In this document: positions 3,146 through 27,912 of the stretch, in pieces
Position numbering within the stretch: position 1 is the stretch's first letter
Layout of the letters: each line of letters opens with the position of its first letter
NCBI GenBank assembly: GCA_003157485.1
Contig: PMJQ01000215.1
Location: forward strand, 1-35,952
Length of the DNA stretch: 35,952 nucleotides
Direction of reading: 5' to 3'
Source: Ignavibacteriota bacterium
GTDB lineage: Bacteria; Bacteroidota; Ignavibacteria; UBA10030; UBA6906
Notes under the pieces: generated by a model
What the model was told of the DNA's origin: nothing
Seen by the model: only the letters and a program-made list of their open reading frames with translations
Database searches by the model: none
Position numbers and translations under genes: made by a program

Positions 3146-4303
3146 TCACATCATCCGTTCCGCCAGTTGAAAAGCTCTCACCTTTAACCTGTCTCCTCCA
3201 CCGAACCATATGGATTCCAGGCGGGCAGCGGGATCACCCTCCATCACGTGATCTGTGTACTCCGTAACACAGTTGAACGCCCCCCAGAGCGTGCCGCGTG
3301 AAAGATCGGCGCCCTGACCGGACTCATAAAGGTCCAGGAATGTGTTCCTGATTCCGATGATCTTCGCCGTGTCCTCACCCCCTGCGCCATCCGGCACCAG
3401 TGCATTTACATAGTCCAGGAGCTGCTTTTCGCTGATCTTTGTGCGGGCCATATGATTGAAACAGGCGTCAAGCTTCTCGTAAAGATGATCTGTTAATCCG
3501 AGCAATGAAAGCGCCTGATCCTCCGATGCACCTGATGTCTGACGGAGGGTGATATCACCCGCACCTTGCAGTACAGCGGTGAGCGTATTATTGCACACAA
3601 CGCGGATAGGCATGATCTTTACCCGAACATTCAGGCTGCCTGTGTGGCTGTTTGAGAGCAACAGGTATCTGTCAACAATGTCTCTTCCGTTTACCTTGAT
3701 GAATCCCGGCAGCTTCGCCAGGATCCAGATGCGTTCACCCCGCCCGATCATCCCGGCTGTTTCAAATACCATCTCATCGGTGCTGATCAGATTGTCGAGA
3801 CATCTGAACGCGTCCCTGTTTTGGACCGGCTCACAGTCATCTTCAACAATCCCCAGCACATCGCCTGTATCCGTTCGCACAGTTACCCAGCGGTCCACCA
3901 CATCGTCGACATGCTTTCGGCGAACAAACTCCCTCATCGGCCTCTTGACCACGGTATAGTCTAACCCAGCGGCTTCAATTGCTTCCTTTGCTGATGCCGG
4001 ATTATCCAATTCGATCCCAGCTTCGTGCCACGGGTGTTGTGCCACTCCGGGATAGGGGGATGGGGTCCGTGGAATTCGGAAGTGTTGCGCCCGAAGGGTC
4101 TTCGCGGAGACAGTCGATCGGTATAGCGGGTGGCCGACTCTAAGAATTGTATAGAGCGGAAAGCAAATTTCTCCCGTTTGAGTTCTTTGCCATCCGAGGA
4201 ATATGACTTCTTGACCGTGAGTTGCCGACTTCGGGATCTCGTCCTGAGGAGGACGGGGCACGTTCAGCGTGTCGGTTCCGCCTCGAGATTGCTTCCTGAA
4301 CAT
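3146..4303 (-). CDS. DUF932 (phage/plasmid-like, TIGR03299-type) protein
   Basis: I choose the ATG at 4303 rather than the TTG at 4351. It is preceded by CGGAGG at ideal spacing, and the extra 16 residues look like leader sequence. The resulting 385-residue protein matches the DUF932 pattern: a variable N-terminus, a core with VLGIVEDDCEPVQNRDAFRCLDN, then MIGRGERIWILAKLPGFIKV, a segment like IRVVCNNTL, and a C-terminal GTLWGAFNCVTEYTDH followed by ARLESIWFGGGDRL. DUF932 proteins occur mainly on plasmids, phages and integrated elements, and their biochemical role is unknown. The 34-bp element shared with the DksA/ECF operon lies about 100 bp upstream, so this gene may belong to that sigma factor's regulon. 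A stump of a second copy lies at 6171-6299. Confidence 0.85.
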   Translation of the reverse strand: MFRKQSRGGTDTLNVPRPPQDEIPKSATHGQEVIFLGWQRTQTGEICFPLYTILRVGHPLYRSTVSAKTLRAQHFRIPRTPSPYPGVAQHPWHEAGIELDNPASAKEAIEAAGLDYTVVKRPMREFVRRKHVDDVVDRWVTVRTDTGDVLGIVEDDCEPVQNRDAFRCLDNLISTDEMVFETAGMIGRGERIWILAKLPGFIKVNGRDIVDRYLLLSNSHTGSLNVRVKIMPIRVVCNNTLTAVLQGAGDITLRQTSGASEDQALSLLGLTDHLYEKLDACFNHMARTKISEKQLLDYVNALVPDGAGGEDTAKIIGIRNTFLDLYESGQGADLSRGTLWGAFNCVTEYTDHVMEGDPAARLESIWFGGGDRLKVRAFQLAERMM

Positions 4304-4403
4304 GAAGGCCTCCGTGGGACCAACCCACTCCGATTCCATCGCGCGGGGCAAGGGGGGAAAAACCCCCGTTGCTCAATATGTTACCACTGATTGTTCATAA
4401 GTC

Positions 4404-6467: not shown

Positions 6468-6821
6468 TTACAGCGTCTCTCCGCAATCACTACAGAATTT
6501 GTTGCCAAGCGGGTTTACTGCAGTACAGCGGGAGCACTTCTTCGGTTCCAATGACTGGCCGCATGAAGGACAGAATTTTGCCTCGCGATCGACCGGGGTA
6601 CTGCAGTAGAAACAGGGCTTCGTCACACCCTCCGGCACTGTGGATACGGATGAGGCGGTCCCTTCGCCGTCAGCACCAAAACCGTCTCGTGTCGCTTTCC
6701 GAAACTCTCGAATGCCTTTTCCGAGTCCCTGTGCCAGTTCCGGTATTTTCTTGCCGCCGAAGAAGACTACCATCAGAAGGACAACAATCAATATCTTTGC
6801 GGGGCTCAGATCTTCCAGCAT
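6468..6821 (-). CDS. TatA-family protein with C-terminal double zinc ribbon
   Basis: The start is set at the ATG at 6821 (117 residues), because the TatA core begins at once: MLEDLSPAKILIVVLLMVVF, then the hinge FGGKKIPELAQGLGKGIREF with its amphipathic helix. TatA proteins form the pore of the twin-arginine translocase for folded exported proteins. After a short linker this one carries two cysteine-rich zinc ribbons: CFYC...CPSCG and CSRC...CSDCG, at about residues 72-115. A normal TatA has an acidic or basic tail instead. A weak AGGGA lies upstream of the start. No tatB or tatC is in the window, so this is probably an accessory TatA paralogue. The ribbon module also occurs in bacterial membrane proteins of unknown role. 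Confidence 0.8.
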   Translation of the reverse strand: MLEDLSPAKILIVVLLMVVFFGGKKIPELAQGLGKGIREFRKATRDGFGADGEGTASSVSTVPEGVTKPCFYCSTPVDREAKFCPSCGQSLEPKKCSRCTAVNPLGNKFCSDCGETL

Positions 6822-6980
6822 GGGTTCCCTTTGAGCAGGTGTGACAACAATTTCTCCATTGAATGTAGGAAGGCATCGACCGAGAGTCAAGGTCGTGACG
6901 CAATCCACCCGCGCTCATCAGGAGTGCCGTTCTCTGCGCACAATTCACTTTCCCATCCCCTGGTGAGCGCCCTCATCCGC

Positions 6981-10284: not shown

Positions 10285-11454
10285 ATGGGACGAAGTCCAG
10301 GATGCTGTGCCAAGCTTGAACGGATGAACAAGACTCTGCGTCACGAGGAAGCGGATCGCGTCCCCGTGAGCGACTTCTTCTGGGGAAGCTTCCTCGAACG
10401 CTGGCGCCGCGACCTGGGGCTCCCGGTCGACACGGATATTTACAAATACTATGATCTGGACTGGATCGTCACCATTCCCAACATGGATCCCCATATCAGG
10501 CAGTTCGATGTGCTTGAGGAGTCGGACAAGCATATCGTCGTCCGGACCGGCTTCGAAGCAATTATCAAGAAGCAGTTCGCCGATCCGATGCCGGCGTTCC
10601 TCAGGTTCGAGACTGATTCGGTCGAGAAAATGGACTCATTCCAGTTCGATGATCCCTGGGATGCCCGGCGGTACTTCAATGCCGGCGACAACCAGATCGC
10701 AGGGGTCGGTGACGGGTTCGCAAGGAACCCGCCGGCATGGCTCGACACGGTGAAGCAGATTCATCCTGATTTCCCGGTGTACGGCAGCGTCTGCGAGGGG
10801 CAGGAGATGCTGTGGCGCATTATCGGATCCGAGAACGTGATGCTCTGGATAGGCCTTTATCCTGACGAACTCGCCAGGTTTATCGAGCGTGTCGGCGAGT
10901 TTGCTCTCGGCATCACGAAGGCCCAGATCGAAGCGGCCGACGGCAGACTTGACGGGATGGTCATCTGGGGAGACGTCGCCTACACCCGGGATGTGTTCTT
11001 CTCCCCCGAGTACTGGCGCAGATGCTTCAAGCCCGTCGTCAAAGCGATAATAGAAGAGTGCCACGCACACGGGCTGCCGGTCATCTATCACGGTTGCGGC
11101 AATGTCCGGAGGATCTTCCAGGATTTCGTTGACGTCGGGGTGGACGCCTACAACCCGCTAGAAGTGAAGGCAGGCATGGATGTCATCGCACTTCGGCGGC
11201 AATACGGCCACAGGATCGGCTTCTGCGGCAACCTGGATGTCATTACATGGGCACACGGCACCCGGGAAGAGATCAAGAAGATGGTCCTCACCAAGCTCAA
11301 CGCTGCGAAAGGCGGCGGTTACATTGTCCAATCCGACCATTCCGTGCCGAGCAATGTTTCCGGAGAAAACTACGACTACGTCATCCGGCTTCTGAGGGAA
11401 TACGGCAACTATCCGCTGCGGCTGGGCGAATATGACATTCCCGGATTGCAGTAA
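10285..11454 (+). CDS. Uroporphyrinogen decarboxylase (UroD/MtaA)-family protein
   Basis: The 389-residue protein shows the UroD-superfamily pattern: LRHEEADRVPVSDFFWGSF at the N-terminus, a central GSVCEGQEMLWRIIG, MVIWGDVAYTRDVFFSPEYW, and PVIYHGCGNV with H269 and C271, then RIGFCGNLDV with C314. A His-x-Cys pair with a later Cys recalls the zinc site of the MtaA/CmuA methyltransferase branch. A heme-pathway UroD would have no reason to sit here. The gene lies beside a Gfo/Idh/MocA oxidoreductase and a sugar symporter, a frequent setting for uncharacterised UroD-like proteins in carbohydrate loci. GGAGAC precedes the ATG at 10285. A start at 10324 would cut the conserved ERMNKTLRHEE block. 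Confidence 0.8.
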   Translation: MGRSPGCCAKLERMNKTLRHEEADRVPVSDFFWGSFLERWRRDLGLPVDTDIYKYYDLDWIVTIPNMDPHIRQFDVLEESDKHIVVRTGFEAIIKKQFADPMPAFLRFETDSVEKMDSFQFDDPWDARRYFNAGDNQIAGVGDGFARNPPAWLDTVKQIHPDFPVYGSVCEGQEMLWRIIGSENVMLWIGLYPDELARFIERVGEFALGITKAQIEAADGRLDGMVIWGDVAYTRDVFFSPEYWRRCFKPVVKAIIEECHAHGLPVIYHGCGNVRRIFQDFVDVGVDAYNPLEVKAGMDVIALRRQYGHRIGFCGNLDVITWAHGTREEIKKMVLTKLNAAKGGGYIVQSDHSVPSNVSGENYDYVIRLLREYGNYPLRLGEYDIPGLQ

Positions 11455-11473
11455 GCCGGTCCAGATAGCCTGC

Positions 11474-12505
11474 CTACATTGTGCTGAAATCCAGAACTGC
11501 GTCCGAATCAGCGCTGCGATAGGCACCGAATGTGATCTTGAGCGTGTCGCGGACATCTTCGAGCCCTGACACCGGAGGTATGCCCCTGAGAATGTAATCG
11601 GAGAATGCCTTAGACTGATTGACAAATGATCCCGCGTATTCAACGTCGTCGTCGATCTTCCCGTCATTAAGGTACAGTCCATCGGTAATCGCCAGGCTCC
11701 CCTCGGTCCCGAATATCCTGATGCCGTTTATCATTCCGGCATGGTTGGATGTCCATGACTGCATGATGACCGCCATTGAGCCGTCAGGATAGAGAAGGCT
11801 TACCTGAGCCGTGTCCTCACAGTCCATCTTTTTCAATACCATTTTTGACTTGAATCCCTGGAGTTTGGCGGGCCTCCCCAGGAGATAAAGTGCCTGGTAA
11901 ATCAGATGGTGGCCGCTGTCAATCAATGCTCCCCCCACTCCGAGCCGTTTGTCCGCCCTCCAACCGTTTGCATGGGCCTCGGAAATCGTATGTGTCGTCA
12001 TGAACGACGAATGGATGATCCGGCCCAGTGTCCCGGCTTCAATAATGTCCTTTGCCTTCCGCACCGCTCCTCTGTAGACCAAATTGTGGGCCGGAAATAT
12101 CTTCACGCTCTTTTCCGCGCTCAGCCGTCTGATCTCATCAAGCTGGTCAAAGTCCGTGACCACAGGCTTTTCGACCATGACGTGCTTTCCGTGAGCGATC
12201 CCTGACTTAATCTGCTCAAAGTGATACGGATTGATGCTGCCAATGATCAACGCGTCAATGTCAGGATCGTCCACCATGGATTCGAAGCTCGCATGCGCCC
12301 TGACCCCCAACCCGGCACATTTCTTCTTCAGACGGTCCATTTCGGCCGCTTTTTCTTTTTCATCACCGAACGGCACATGACACATGCCTGTGATCGCCGC
12401 ATCCGGGTTATTCTTGAACCCATTGGAGTGCCAGTCAGCGATGAATCCGATACCGACCATTCCGACTCTCAGTTTTGACATCGTCGTGTCCAGCTCTGTC
12501 GTCAT
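11474..12505 (-). CDS. Gfo/Idh/MocA-family NAD(P)-dependent oxidoreductase
   Basis: The protein has the Rossmann start LRVGMVGIGFIADWH (GxGxxA-like), SINPYHFEQIKSGIAHGKHVMVEKPVV with the family EKP motif near residue 100, and the C-terminal domain with GGALIDSGHHLIYQALYLLG. Enzymes of this family oxidise or reduce sugars, inositols and sugar acids, and the substrate cannot be told from sequence. The ORF start at 12505 and the ATG at 12481 (MSKLRVGMVG) are both possible. Neither has a good Shine-Dalgarno, and the shorter form matches family length better. It converges with the UroD-like gene, leaving 19 bp between stops. It is divergent from the GPH symporter gene across the FNR-like box. Confidence 0.9.
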   Translation of the reverse strand: MTTELDTTMSKLRVGMVGIGFIADWHSNGFKNNPDAAITGMCHVPFGDEKEKAAEMDRLKKKCAGLGVRAHASFESMVDDPDIDALIIGSINPYHFEQIKSGIAHGKHVMVEKPVVTDFDQLDEIRRLSAEKSVKIFPAHNLVYRGAVRKAKDIIEAGTLGRIIHSSFMTTHTISEAHANGWRADKRLGVGGALIDSGHHLIYQALYLLGRPAKLQGFKSKMVLKKMDCEDTAQVSLLYPDGSMAVIMQSWTSNHAGMINGIRIFGTEGSLAITDGLYLNDGKIDDDVEYAGSFVNQSKAFSDYILRGIPPVSGLEDVRDTLKITFGAYRSADSDAVLDFSTM

Positions 12506-12645
12506 GCCAGTGCGAAGTTCGTTCTGTTCCCGGCCCGGGCACTGGCGACACCCCGCCGGACGGACGCTTCCCGATCCAGACCGCGAGAAGAACCTATCAG
12601 TCTCACGGGAATGAAATGGACTCTCCCACTCTGTTCTGAATGATA

Positions 12646-12659
12646 TTGATTTTGATCAA
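12646..12659. promoter_or_regulatory. FNR/CRP-superfamily box
   Basis: TTGATTTTGATCAA is a perfect match to the E. coli FNR half-site pair TTGAT-N4-ATCAA. It lies in the 248-bp divergent region between the Gfo/Idh/MocA gene and the symporter gene, about 95 bp before the symporter ATG. A CRP-family regulator with the same recognition helix could use it. No such regulator is in the window. Confidence 0.55.
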
Positions 12660-12753
12660 ACAAATGACTAGTGTCAGCATTCTACAGGTCCGCAAATTTG
12701 CAGCTTGAAGTTCTCAATACCCCACTTTCAGCCATCGTGCGAGGATACCAGCA

Positions 12754-14535
12754 ATGCAGCCCCTGAAATTAAGTGAGAAGATCGGCTACGGCTTTGGCGA
12801 TGCCGCCTCGTCGATGTTCTGGAAGCTCTTCGGCATGTACCTCATGTTCTTCTACACCGACATCTTTGGCATTCCGGCCGCCGCCGTCGGAACCATGTTC
12901 CTTGTGACCCGCATCGGCGATGCCGCTTTCGATCCGCTCGTCGGCATCATGGCCGACCGCACCAATACGCGCTGGGGAAAATTCAGGCCGTACCTGCTGT
13001 GGATGGCATTCCCGATAGGGATCATCGTGGTACTGACGTTCACGACCCCCGATATGAGCGTAAGCGGAAAGATCATCTATGCGTATGTGACCTACTCGCT
13101 GATGATGATAGTCTACTCCCTTATCAACGTCCCATATGCATCGCTTATGGGCGTCATGACCGACGACAGCAAACAGAGAACGACACTGGCGACCTTCCGC
13201 TTCATATTCGCATTCGGCGGAAGTTTCCTGGTCCTCGGACTTTTCCAGCCCCTCTTCGACGGATTTGGCACCAGGACATTCAATGAATTCGCATCCCCGA
13301 GGACCATTGAAATTACCGATACCACCGCAAAGACGACAAGCAGAATAGTGGTCTGGGAAGGGACGATCCAGAATTCAACGTTGACAAATCCCGTCGATTC
13401 ACTTCTGTTTCTTACCGCCAAAGCAAATACCACAGCCAAGGAAGCGTTCAGCCTCGGCGTGTTCAATACCAGAACCAGCCAGTATTACGGGTTCAATTTT
13501 GCCGAGGGGAAGGATACACTCGGGTTGCTGCGATCCGGCGTCACCTGCGACGTGAAGATAAGACTGGATCAAATCTCGCCCGGGGAGAACCTCTCCAATC
13601 TCGCCGATCTCAGGTTTGCGAGCAAGGGGATCGATGAGCATTCCATTGCAATTCGCAATATCGCATTAAAGGAGATCAATTACCGCACCGGAACCCAGAA
13701 GGCGGTAATCGTCATTGCCATTCTAGCGGTGATCTTCTTCCTGCTCACGTTCTCTCTGACCCGTGAAAAGGTAAAACCGATCGACGCCAAGAACGCGTTC
13801 AGAGATGATTTGAAAGACCTCAGCAAGAACGGCCCCTGGTTTATTCTTCTCGGGGCGGGCATTTCGACGATTTTCTTCAATACGATCCGCGATGGCGCGG
13901 CGGTGTACTACTTCATGTACTACTTCAAAGGGATGAACAACATCGAATTCAGTTCATCCATGATACTCGCCATCAGCACCATCTATCTGCTGCTGGGACA
14001 GGCGGCCAACATTGTCGGGGTCGTCCTTGCTAAACCTGTCTCCGATAGAATCGGCAAGAAAAACACATTCCTCTTCGCTATGGTGAATGCCGCCATCCTG
14101 AGCATTATTTTCTTCTTCCTCGACAGGACGAATATTTCCCTGATTCTCGTGTTCCAGTTCCTGATCAGCATCAACGCAGGCATCATATTCCCGCTGGTCT
14201 GGGCGATGTACGCCGATACCGCCGATTATTCCGAATGGAAGAACGGCCGCCGCGCCACGGGACTTGTTTTCTCCGCCGCCTCCATGTCGCAAAAGTTCGG
14301 AGCGTCAATCGGCATCGCGATGGTGGGCTGGGTCCTCGCCATCTACGGCTATCAGGCCAACGTGGAACAAACAGAAGCGACACAAAACGGCATCCGCATG
14401 ATGCTGAGCATTTACCCTGCGATCGGGGCCTTACTCGCCGCAGGTTTCATATTCATCTACCCGCTCAAGGAATCAGTTCTCGAGGCAATCAGCCATGAGC
14501 TGGCTGTCTTCCGTTCAACAGGCAAAAAGCCCTGA
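12754..14535 (+). CDS. GPH-family sugar/cation symporter (MelB-like) with large inserted domain
   Basis: The protein has a MelB-type N-terminus: LSEKIGYGFGDAASSMFWKL, then RIGDAAFDPLVGIMADRTNT, with D56 and D60 at the positions of the MelB cation-site Asp55 and Asp59. The third MelB Asp (124) is an Asn here (SLINVPYASL). About 12 membrane helices are present, but between helices 5 and 6 a soluble stretch of about 140 residues (171-312) is inserted. The total is therefore 593 residues instead of about 460. The insert is Thr/Asn-rich and beta-like and should face outside by homology. The sugar substrate is unknown. GAGGATACCAGCA precedes the ATG, and a perfect FNR-type box lies upstream. Confidence 0.9.
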   Translation: MQPLKLSEKIGYGFGDAASSMFWKLFGMYLMFFYTDIFGIPAAAVGTMFLVTRIGDAAFDPLVGIMADRTNTRWGKFRPYLLWMAFPIGIIVVLTFTTPDMSVSGKIIYAYVTYSLMMIVYSLINVPYASLMGVMTDDSKQRTTLATFRFIFAFGGSFLVLGLFQPLFDGFGTRTFNEFASPRTIEITDTTAKTTSRIVVWEGTIQNSTLTNPVDSLLFLTAKANTTAKEAFSLGVFNTRTSQYYGFNFAEGKDTLGLLRSGVTCDVKIRLDQISPGENLSNLADLRFASKGIDEHSIAIRNIALKEINYRTGTQKAVIVIAILAVIFFLLTFSLTREKVKPIDAKNAFRDDLKDLSKNGPWFILLGAGISTIFFNTIRDGAAVYYFMYYFKGMNNIEFSSSMILAISTIYLLLGQAANIVGVVLAKPVSDRIGKKNTFLFAMVNAAILSIIFFFLDRTNISLILVFQFLISINAGIIFPLVWAMYADTADYSEWKNGRRATGLVFSAASMSQKFGASIGIAMVGWVLAIYGYQANVEQTEATQNGIRMMLSIYPAIGALLAAGFIFIYPLKESVLEAISHELAVFRSTGKKP

Positions 14536-17155: not shown

Positions 17156-18016
17156 CTATTCCGGAATCCAGAACGGTTCGCGGGCCGGAACAAATTCCAC
17201 CGGAACATCTTTCACGAACGTTTCAAGCCACCGGACACATTCTTTCATGCCGGATTGTTCCGACGGTATGTGACCGAGGATAATCAGTCCCCTCCTGTTT
17301 CCTTCCGTCACCGCGTCAGCCGCATATTCCACAGTCTCCCATTCATGCGCTTCGCCGATCACCAGTACCTCAACCCCCCGGCGCTGGAAGATATCGCGGT
17401 TGACCTCAAACCCGGGAAAACCCTCCGAGACACCCACCGTCGACACGATCGCGTCAGGATCTCCGACAACCCGAAGCGCGCGGATATCGAGCAGTTTTTT
17501 CAGATCCCCGGCCAGACCCTTGAGCGTCGTCGAGGGGATGTGGAAGACATTCCCGTCCTCCGTGTCCTGAAACTTCTCCCATCCGAGCGCGCGGACCATC
17601 CCGGTCCGTATGCCGTCCGGTCTCCGGGCGTGCCAGTGATCGTGAAAGCGCCAGACGACGAGGTGATGTTCTCGTATGAACTCCGCTTTGGCAAGGAACA
17701 CGGGATCGCGGAGGCTCTCCAGGCGCCCGGTGGAATCCAGGTGACTGTAGAACACCGGTTCATGAGTGATTATGAAATTGTCCCCTCTTGCCGCCGCCCG
17801 CTGAAGGACGTCGAGTGTCGCCATCATTGTCACGGCGATGCCGGTCACCGCGGCATCCGGGTCGCCCGCCTTGAAGACATCTACCGTGGGCTCGTGCCAC
17901 GGGACGCCGACATTCGCCTTGATGCGCTCCACAATCTGAGCGGCAGTCGGCCGCGTCCCCTGAGAAAAAGCTGTCAAGGGCACCATCAACAACAGAACGG
18001 CGATGCAAGATTTCAT
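17156..18016 (-). CDS. Exported NIF3-like dinuclear metal-centre protein
   Basis: The ATG at 18016 starts a signal peptide (MKSCIAVLLLMVPLTAFSQG), giving 286 residues. The longer frame to 18091 is therefore rejected. The rest matches the NIF3/YbgI family: GIAVTMMATLDVLQRAAARG, NFIITHEPVFY with the metal-binding His-Glu, VVWRFHDHWHARRPDG, then GEAHEWETVEYAADAV and LIILGHIPSEQSGMKE. NIF3 proteins are normally cytosolic hexameric rings with two metals per subunit and an unclear enzymatic role. A signal peptide is unusual and would place this one in the periplasm or outside. Metal ligands appear intact, so a hydrolase-like function is possible. Confidence 0.85.
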   Translation of the reverse strand: MKSCIAVLLLMVPLTAFSQGTRPTAAQIVERIKANVGVPWHEPTVDVFKAGDPDAAVTGIAVTMMATLDVLQRAAARGDNFIITHEPVFYSHLDSTGRLESLRDPVFLAKAEFIREHHLVVWRFHDHWHARRPDGIRTGMVRALGWEKFQDTEDGNVFHIPSTTLKGLAGDLKKLLDIRALRVVGDPDAIVSTVGVSEGFPGFEVNRDIFQRRGVEVLVIGEAHEWETVEYAADAVTEGNRRGLIILGHIPSEQSGMKECVRWLETFVKDVPVEFVPAREPFWIPE

Positions 18017-26550: not shown

Positions 26551-27912
26551 ATGATACTCCGACTCATATCCCGATCCCTTTTCGTTCTTCTATCCGCCGC
26601 ATCCCTTGCATACGCCCGGACGGACGGAGGAGGAGGCGATGCACACCCTACACTTAAGACAAACGCGGAGTCGCTCAGGAGGTGGCAGGACATGCGATTC
26701 GGGATGTTCATACACTGGGGTCCGGTCACACTGCGCGGCACGGAAATCGGATGGTCCCGAGGGGTGCAGGTCCCGGCAGCGGAATACGACGGTCTGTACC
26801 ACGAGTTCAATCCGGCGCTTTTCGACGCCGGGCGATGGATCGGCGCGGCGAAGAGGGGAGGCATGCAATACGTCGTCATCGTCTCAAAGCACCATGACGG
26901 GTTCTGTCTGTGGGACACAAAATACACCGACTACAAGATCACAGCGACCCCCCTTGGCCGGGACGTACTCAGGGAGCTGTCGGATGAATGCGGGCGCCAG
27001 GGGATGATGTTCTGCACGTACTATTCCATACTCGACTGGCACCACCCTGACTATACGACGCGGCACGGAGCGGACGACAGGCCCGTGATCGAGTCCGGCA
27101 TGGACCGTTACCGGATCTATCTGAAAAATCAGATCCGTGAACTCGTCAACGACTATCATTCACATCTTCTCTGGTTCGACGGACAATGGGAGAAGTCCTG
27201 GACGCACAGGGACGGGATGGATCTCTACGCATATGCGAGAAGCCTCAACGACTCCCTTCTCATCAACAACCGCGTCGACAAGGGACGGGGGAACCCGGCG
27301 CGGGCCGGCGACACGGTGGCCTTTGCAGGTGACTTCGGCACTCCGGAGCAGGAAATAGGAACCCTCGACAACGAGCACCCGTGGGAGTCATGCATCACCA
27401 TAGGGACCCAGTGGTCATGGAAGCCCAACGACTCGCTGAAAACGCTCAAGGAGTGCATCCAGATACTGGCAAAGACCGCCGGAGGCGGAGGAAACCTGCT
27501 TCTCAATATCAGCCCGATGCCGGATGGAAGGTTCGAACAGAGGCAGATCGACCGGCTGGCCGGGATAGGCCTCTGGCTCGGGCGATACGGAGAGAGCATC
27601 TACGGCACGCGCGGGGGACCGTACGCGACCACGTCCCGTGTCGCATCGACATGCAGAGGCAACCTTGTCTACGTGCACATGCTGACTCCGCCGGCAGGGC
27701 CGCTCCGTCTTCCCGTCATCCCCGGCAGGACGGTCAGAGGCGCGCGCGTGCTCGGAGGCGGCGGGCTTGGTGTGCGGACGAAAGGCGAGAACATCGTCAT
27801 TGACGTGCCGTCCGCGCCGGCGGACCTCAACGACAGCGTTATCGTCCTGGAACTGGATGGTTCGGCCGAGACGGTCAGGCCGGTCGTCATCCCTGCGGGA
27901 GGGGTGCAATGA
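26551..27912 (+). CDS. GH29 alpha-L-fucosidase
   Basis: The protein has a signal peptide (MILRLISRSLFVLLSAASLA, cut near YAR). It shows the GH29 pattern: MRFGMFIHWGPVTLRG (49-62), QYVVIVSKHHDGFCLWDTKY (106-125), GMMFCTYYSILDWHHPDY and LLWFDGQW with the likely nucleophile D210. AGDFGTPEQEIGTLDNEHPWESC and a GGGGNLLLNISPMPDG-type ending (NLLLNISPMPDG) follow, then a small beta domain. GH29 enzymes release terminal alpha-fucose from glycans by a retaining mechanism. The 453-residue length is normal. No strong Shine-Dalgarno precedes the ATG, and the upstream DNA is AT-rich. It likely acts in the periplasm or on exported glycan fragments. The SDR gene follows at 85 nt on the same strand. Confidence 0.93.
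   Translation: MILRLISRSLFVLLSAASLAYARTDGGGGDAHPTLKTNAESLRRWQDMRFGMFIHWGPVTLRGTEIGWSRGVQVPAAEYDGLYHEFNPALFDAGRWIGAAKRGGMQYVVIVSKHHDGFCLWDTKYTDYKITATPLGRDVLRELSDECGRQGMMFCTYYSILDWHHPDYTTRHGADDRPVIESGMDRYRIYLKNQIRELVNDYHSHLLWFDGQWEKSWTHRDGMDLYAYARSLNDSLLINNRVDKGRGNPARAGDTVAFAGDFGTPEQEIGTLDNEHPWESCITIGTQWSWKPNDSLKTLKECIQILAKTAGGGGNLLLNISPMPDGRFEQRQIDRLAGIGLWLGRYGESIYGTRGGPYATTSRVASTCRGNLVYVHMLTPPAGPLRLPVIPGRTVRGARVLGGGGLGVRTKGENIVIDVPSAPADLNDSVIVLELDGSAETVRPVVIPAGGVQ

Follow-up and report, generated by a model that had tools for sequence, protein, structure and literature searches.

The DUF34/NIF3 family is nearly universal, and a homohexameric toroid is the arrangement characteristic of the superfamily. 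The annotation of its members as GTP cyclohydrolase I type 2 has been challenged (PMC8469502). One described member, XynX of Geobacillus proteiniphilus T-6 (PDB 9g9u), is encoded in the Geobacillus xylan cluster, where xynX adjoins the acetylxylan esterase gene axe2 (PMC4593210). No publication was found for entry 9g9u by its code in the literature searched, which was partially covered. NIF3 proteins have also been reported outside the cell, namely secreted DUF34 homologues (YqfO03) of Pseudomonas (PMC8469502; PMC6321441). Within the same partial coverage, neither an exported NIF3 clade nor a NIF3 protein with a Tat leader was found to have been described.

The window analysed here, a 35,952-nucleotide stretch of DNA from an Ignavibacteriota bacterium, carries a gene of this family, as the initial annotation had proposed without assigning a strand. 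The ORF fills positions 17156 to 18016 on the minus strand, with its ATG at 18016 and its stop codon at 17156-17158, and encodes 286 amino acids. A plus-strand reading was rejected, there being no gene on that strand. The product matches Pfam DUF34_NIF3 (PF01784) with 60.9 bits, the cut-off being 23.4, and its nearest orthologues are 63-64% identical over the full length. Its score against TIGR00486, the NCBI equivalog for canonical NIF3, is 41.4 bits, below the cut-off of 130.55 bits, an early indication that the protein differs from an ordinary YbgI. A predicted Sec-type signal peptide, residues 1-18 (17963-18016, minus strand), precedes Q19, and the NIF3 domain covers residues 24-286 (17159-17947, minus strand). 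The AlphaFold model, computed for a single chain with 30 relatives, reached a pLDDT of 93.5 and a pTM of 0.88, and mainly the first 20 residues were poorly placed (AF2 pLDDT of 61-64 at residues 1-20 and 96-98 beyond). Foldseek ranked XynX 9g9u first for this model (TM 0.92), followed by SA1388, YqfO, HcgD and YbgI.

The metal ligands of YbgI were used as the reference for the putative metal site. In the profile alignment to YbgI (1nmo), the first ligand pair, H85-E86 (17759-17764, minus strand), falls on the His-His pair of IVHHG, while H249 and E253 of the conserved third motif, HxxSE (17258-17272, minus strand; canonical GHxxTE), fall on GHHATE. The second motif, H125-D-H-W-H129 (17630-17644, minus strand), was placed by alignment to YqfO on the HxxxD motif, AHTNVD or AHTNLD in canonical NIF3. 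Ligand identities were thus drawn from alignment and from the YbgI site, together with published descriptions (PMC1779786; PMC8469502). The canonical HH / HxxxD / HxxxE arrangement becomes HE / HxxxH / HxxxE in the window protein: four of the six positions are canonical, the second His of the first motif is replaced by E86, and the Asp of HxxxD by H129. In addition, the 30-sequence alignment revealed a subfamily signature, GEAHEWETVEY, at residues 221-231 (17324-17356, minus strand), in which G221, E222, W226 and Y231 are invariant.

These replacements are shared by the relatives. E86 is present in 76/76 Sec, 30/31 Tat and 9/9 near leaderless members, and is His in 11 canonical proteins; H129 is present in 76/76, 29/31 and 9/9 of the same groups, where canonical proteins have Asp. 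Among far leaderless relatives, 10 of 13 have Asp at the H129 position, and nearly all of these have Glu at the first. Distant leaderless NIF3 relatives of this kind, with HE...HxxxD...HxxxE, were seen in Chloroflexota and Planctomycetota (loci L126 to L147). As aligned, the HE plus HxxxD site of the far relatives appears to be an intermediate between the canonical and the XynX-like sites. The initial annotation had described an intact metal-ligand set. Since E86 and H129 are fixed across the Sec members where canonical proteins have His and Asp, what had been called intact is an altered set, kept across the subfamily. The window protein very probably contains a metal centre with changed ligands. 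It thus lacks the canonical TIGR00486 site (HH, HxxxD, HxxxE) and, carrying a Sec leader, departs from the canonical cytosolic, leaderless form, while it has both features by which we define the XynX-like subfamily, namely HE / HxxxH / HxxxE ligands and the GExxEWExxEY signature.

With its n/h/c organisation, the N-terminus (MKSCIAVLLLMVPLTAFSQ) forms a classical signal peptide, as the initial annotation had stated. It has a positive n-region, a hydrophobic core with a mean Kyte-Doolittle value of 3.0 and small residues at -3 and -1, as expected for Sec/SPI, and the predicted cut lies after AFS, that is, between MKSCIAVLLLMVPLTAFS and Q. The Gln at +1 resembles the Q-rule of Bacteroidetes, described as not general in the FCB group (PMC5837995). 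The resemblance exceeds chance: prior to correction by hand, an automatic leader rule was positive in 100 members of the subfamily and in none of the 11 canonical NIF3 controls. The rule is crude, however; 12-15% of internal or shuffled (leaderless) sequences trigger it, as do 41% of all called genes, a set that contains genuine membrane and exported proteins. About a dozen calls were reassigned by eye, and 126 proteins remained in the tree.

Relatives were collected by a scan of GTDB species genomes, which gave 408 loci. The best 80 of these 408 are mostly from Acidobacteriota, with others from Gemmatimonadota, Bacteroidota, Planctomycetota and Ignavibacteriota. On the 126-protein tree, leader type (Sec, Tat or none) requires only 5 changes, against a mean of 47.2 when shuffled. 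The window protein belongs to a clade of 90 proteins (support 100/92), of which 73 have Sec leaders, 14 have Tat leaders and three are leaderless, so that the exported NIF3 proteins do form a clade, a point that the initial annotation had left to be checked. Many Bacteroidota relatives outside this clade have Tat leaders, and relatives without a leader come from Bacillota, Deinococcus and Chloroflexota. With nearly all close orthologues carrying a Sec or Tat leader, the comparison supports well a genuine export signal in the window protein, and the protein is very probably exported in the cell.

The distribution of this gene is patchy, as expected for a catabolic accessory gene. Three congeners lack it, and within its family it occurs in 2 of 21 genomes; judged by strong matches, its frequency in a broad phylum sample is roughly 5%, and another count gave 12/199. 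On the tree, Ignavibacteria are interleaved with Acidobacteriota and Gemmatimonadota in the nearest branches, a pattern that suggests horizontal movement of the gene. The same genome encodes a separate canonical NIF3 of 390 aa, so the window copy is an additional one, not the housekeeping one.

A sugar-related gene context is clear in the cytosolic members, occasional in the exported ones and absent beside the window gene; the general association with sugar genes is putative. A Paenibacillus cytosolic relative adjoins a sugar ABC transporter, an alpha-glucuronidase and a GH2 gene, the one of L. plantarum adjoins a mannose-type PTS and a ChbG deacetylase, and further ones lie in oligopeptide-type ABC/hydrolase clusters. 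Exported copies were found beside GH39/isomerase/GH16 genes (locus L157), beside a xylose-isomerase-like barrel and an aldolase-SDR fusion (L066) and beside a GMC/gluconate-dehydrogenase subunit (L019). Most exported copies have no conserved partner gene, and at 33 of 73 loci no same-strand neighbour lies within 150 bp. The window gene itself is apparently monocistronic, its neighbours being an OmpA-type gene and a glycosyltransferase/methyltransferase pair; no conserved neighbourhood was found for it, and its two nearest relatives have no other adjacent gene in common with the window. A link to a 3-keto-glycoside pathway through neighbouring PF06439 genes (3-keto-disaccharide hydrolase) was also considered and rejected. 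This family occurs in 62 of 67 genomes, often in many copies, and its presence within three genes across the loci, in three independent cases against about 0.8 estimated by chance, is only a weak excess once copy number is counted.

Other parts of the window were noted in their own right. Genes for a URO-D-like protein, a Gfo/Idh/MocA oxidoreductase and an MFS_2 sugar transporter are adjacent at 10285-14535 and, with an alpha-L-fucosidase gene at 26551-27912, make up a sugar-related stretch. In a single ORF at 6468-6908 (minus strand), double zinc-ribbon domains follow a TatA/MttA-type protein, an unusual C-terminal extension for a Tat component, and a DUF932 protein is encoded at 3146-4351 (minus strand) amid ordinary chromosomal genes.

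Taken together, the best explanation of these features is a Sec-exported, XynX-like NIF3 protein acting as a metal-dependent enzyme of glycan degradation, to which we assign a probability of about 0.5. As the sugar neighbours are mixed and the PF06439 excess is weak, a glycan-related metal enzyme is held at moderate confidence. The odds of a carbohydrate role are about even, and hydrolysis is put forward tentatively as the reaction. GTP cyclohydrolase activity outside the cytoplasm is implausible. The initial annotation had placed a dinuclear-metal enzyme in the periplasm or outside. Its location agrees with the leader and the clade; the enzyme itself is a role that we infer, as for no DUF34/NIF3 protein of this branch could an activity be found, and the ligand set is not the canonical one.

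The protein could instead be an exported metal chaperone or insertase, which would hand metal to periplasmic or outer-membrane metalloenzymes. Such a role has been proposed in general terms for DUF34 (PMC8469502), and the window protein has both an intact NIF3 fold and metal ligands. General metal supply nevertheless fits poorly with the patchy presence of the gene and with the canonical NIF3 of the same genome, and both a ligand set unlike the canonical one and the relatives in sugar operons speak against it. We regard this role as unlikely.

Nine Acidobacteriota loci contain two translationally coupled NIF3 genes, with overlapping stop and start codons (ATGA, TGATG or TAATG) in all nine (L174, 5938-7667; L176, 5908-7631; L217, 3917-5646; L221, 4015-5693; and L175, L216 and L218 to L220). 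In these pairs, the first gene encodes a Tat-type leader and degenerate ligands (CESRRE, LGSSRE, SQSQRE, SESRRE, YEHQRE or YERQRE against HEHHHE), and the second gene encodes no leader and all six ligands. The first copies form one clade (100/99) and the second copies another (96/91), which indicates one duplication that was kept as a pair. Ligand-bearing halves of Acidobacteriota pairs account for two of the three leaderless proteins in the 90-protein clade. The assignment is reversed in two pairs (L222, 4000-5764; L223, 4005-5747), in which the ligandless copy is leaderless and the ligand-bearing copy has the Tat leader, and at one locus both copies have a Tat leader and the complete ligand set. 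The ligandless copy is predicted to have the NIF3 fold, with a model pLDDT of 75.6 and XynX as the first Foldseek match. The simplest reading of these gene pairs is a hetero-oligomer that would form and take up its metal in the cytoplasm and then leave, folded, through Tat by means of one leader. If true, the pairs would offer a clear example from nature of a NIF3 hetero-oligomer being co-exported.

The occurrence of ligandless NIF3 subunits in the subfamily also lends something to the idea that the window protein is an exported scaffold or pseudo-enzyme with no catalysis. The window copy, however, keeps all six subfamily ligands, which are invariant across its clade, and this makes such a role improbable.

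About as improbable, or slightly more so, is a protein that is cytosolic after all, either because the leader is not cleaved or because the true start lies downstream. Leaderless relatives do exist (in the three groups named above), and the ATG of the window gene is not preceded by a Shine-Dalgarno sequence at good spacing. Against this, the window gene has no usable downstream start: the next in-frame ATG past the leader is M64, within the domain, and GTG29 as a start would cut the first helix. A downstream internal start that removes the signal peptide was searched for in orthologues and was not found in the close ones. In orthologues whose mature parts are 60-69% identical, the leaders have only 3-6 of 23 ungapped positions in common and still begin with a basic stretch, followed by a hydrophobic core and often by a small-x-small junction before Q. 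In close pairs, pN/pS falls from 0.45 in the leader region to 0.11 over the initial 60 aa of the domain, indicating that the leader region is translated and mildly constrained. The leader is thus kept under purifying selection in the sampled close orthologues and evolves as coding sequence, and an artefact of start choice was rejected. Moreover, Tat leaders replace Sec ones in Bacteroidota relatives.

Regulation of glycan-degradation genes, reported for XynX in a review table that lists it as negatively regulating xynA, the gene of a secreted xylanase (PMC8469502), is hardly credible here, since Sec or Tat leaders are present in over 100 relatives on the tree and an extracytoplasmic protein cannot act on DNA; we argue that this role is at most local to XynX itself and not the shared function of its subfamily.

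For the glycan-degradation enzyme that we favour, the following course may be proposed. The protein would be translated with its cleavable leader, cross the inner membrane unfolded via Sec and be cut between AFS and Q. The mature protein would then fold outside the cytoplasm into a NIF3 oligomer, which would load a two-metal site made of H85, E86, H125, H129, H249 and E253. Its most likely task, while polysaccharides are broken down, would be the conversion of oligosaccharides or their substituents, as a metal-dependent hydrolase or a small-molecule enzyme of a similar kind. In bacteria that begin by importing the oligosaccharides, this task would fall to cytosolic relatives. XynX, the closest solved relative, lies in a xylan cluster, which suggests that the exported clade serves sugar degradation outside the cytoplasm and not general housekeeping. 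A patchy, Sec- or Tat-exported branch alongside a canonical cytosolic NIF3 is set apart from the ideas of folate, DNA and general cytosolic metal supply, and it makes a defined enzyme assay worth trying. More broadly, the XynX-like branch may be an extracytoplasmic class of NIF3-fold enzymes with a rebuilt two-metal site, engaged in glycan breakdown, in which part of the Acidobacteriota would have an obligate two-subunit enzyme whose ligandless Tat subunit brings its leaderless partner, the bearer of the ligands, through the membrane in a folded complex; we consider this possible, at somewhat less than an even chance.

Among known systems, XynX is like the window protein in sequence (39% identity), in structure (TM 0.92) and, by alignment, in its HE / HxxxH / HxxxE ligands and GExxEWExxEY signature. 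It differs in that its chain has no leader and comes from a xylan cluster, whereas the window protein is exported and its gene stands alone. YbgI, SA1388 and YqfO have the same fold (Foldseek E of 1e-12 to 1e-15) and three ligand motifs at homologous places; unlike them, the window protein has two ligand replacements, a leader and no PII insert. HcgD of Methanocaldococcus jannaschii (MJ0927) also has the NIF3 fold, with a two-metal site, but it is cytosolic, has the canonical site and takes part in [Fe]-hydrogenase cofactor biosynthesis. The Pseudomonas YqfO03 proteins are set apart by their description as truncated homologues with a proposed nematicidal role. The exported, ligand-swapped NIF3 of the XynX-like kind is a variant form of a known family.
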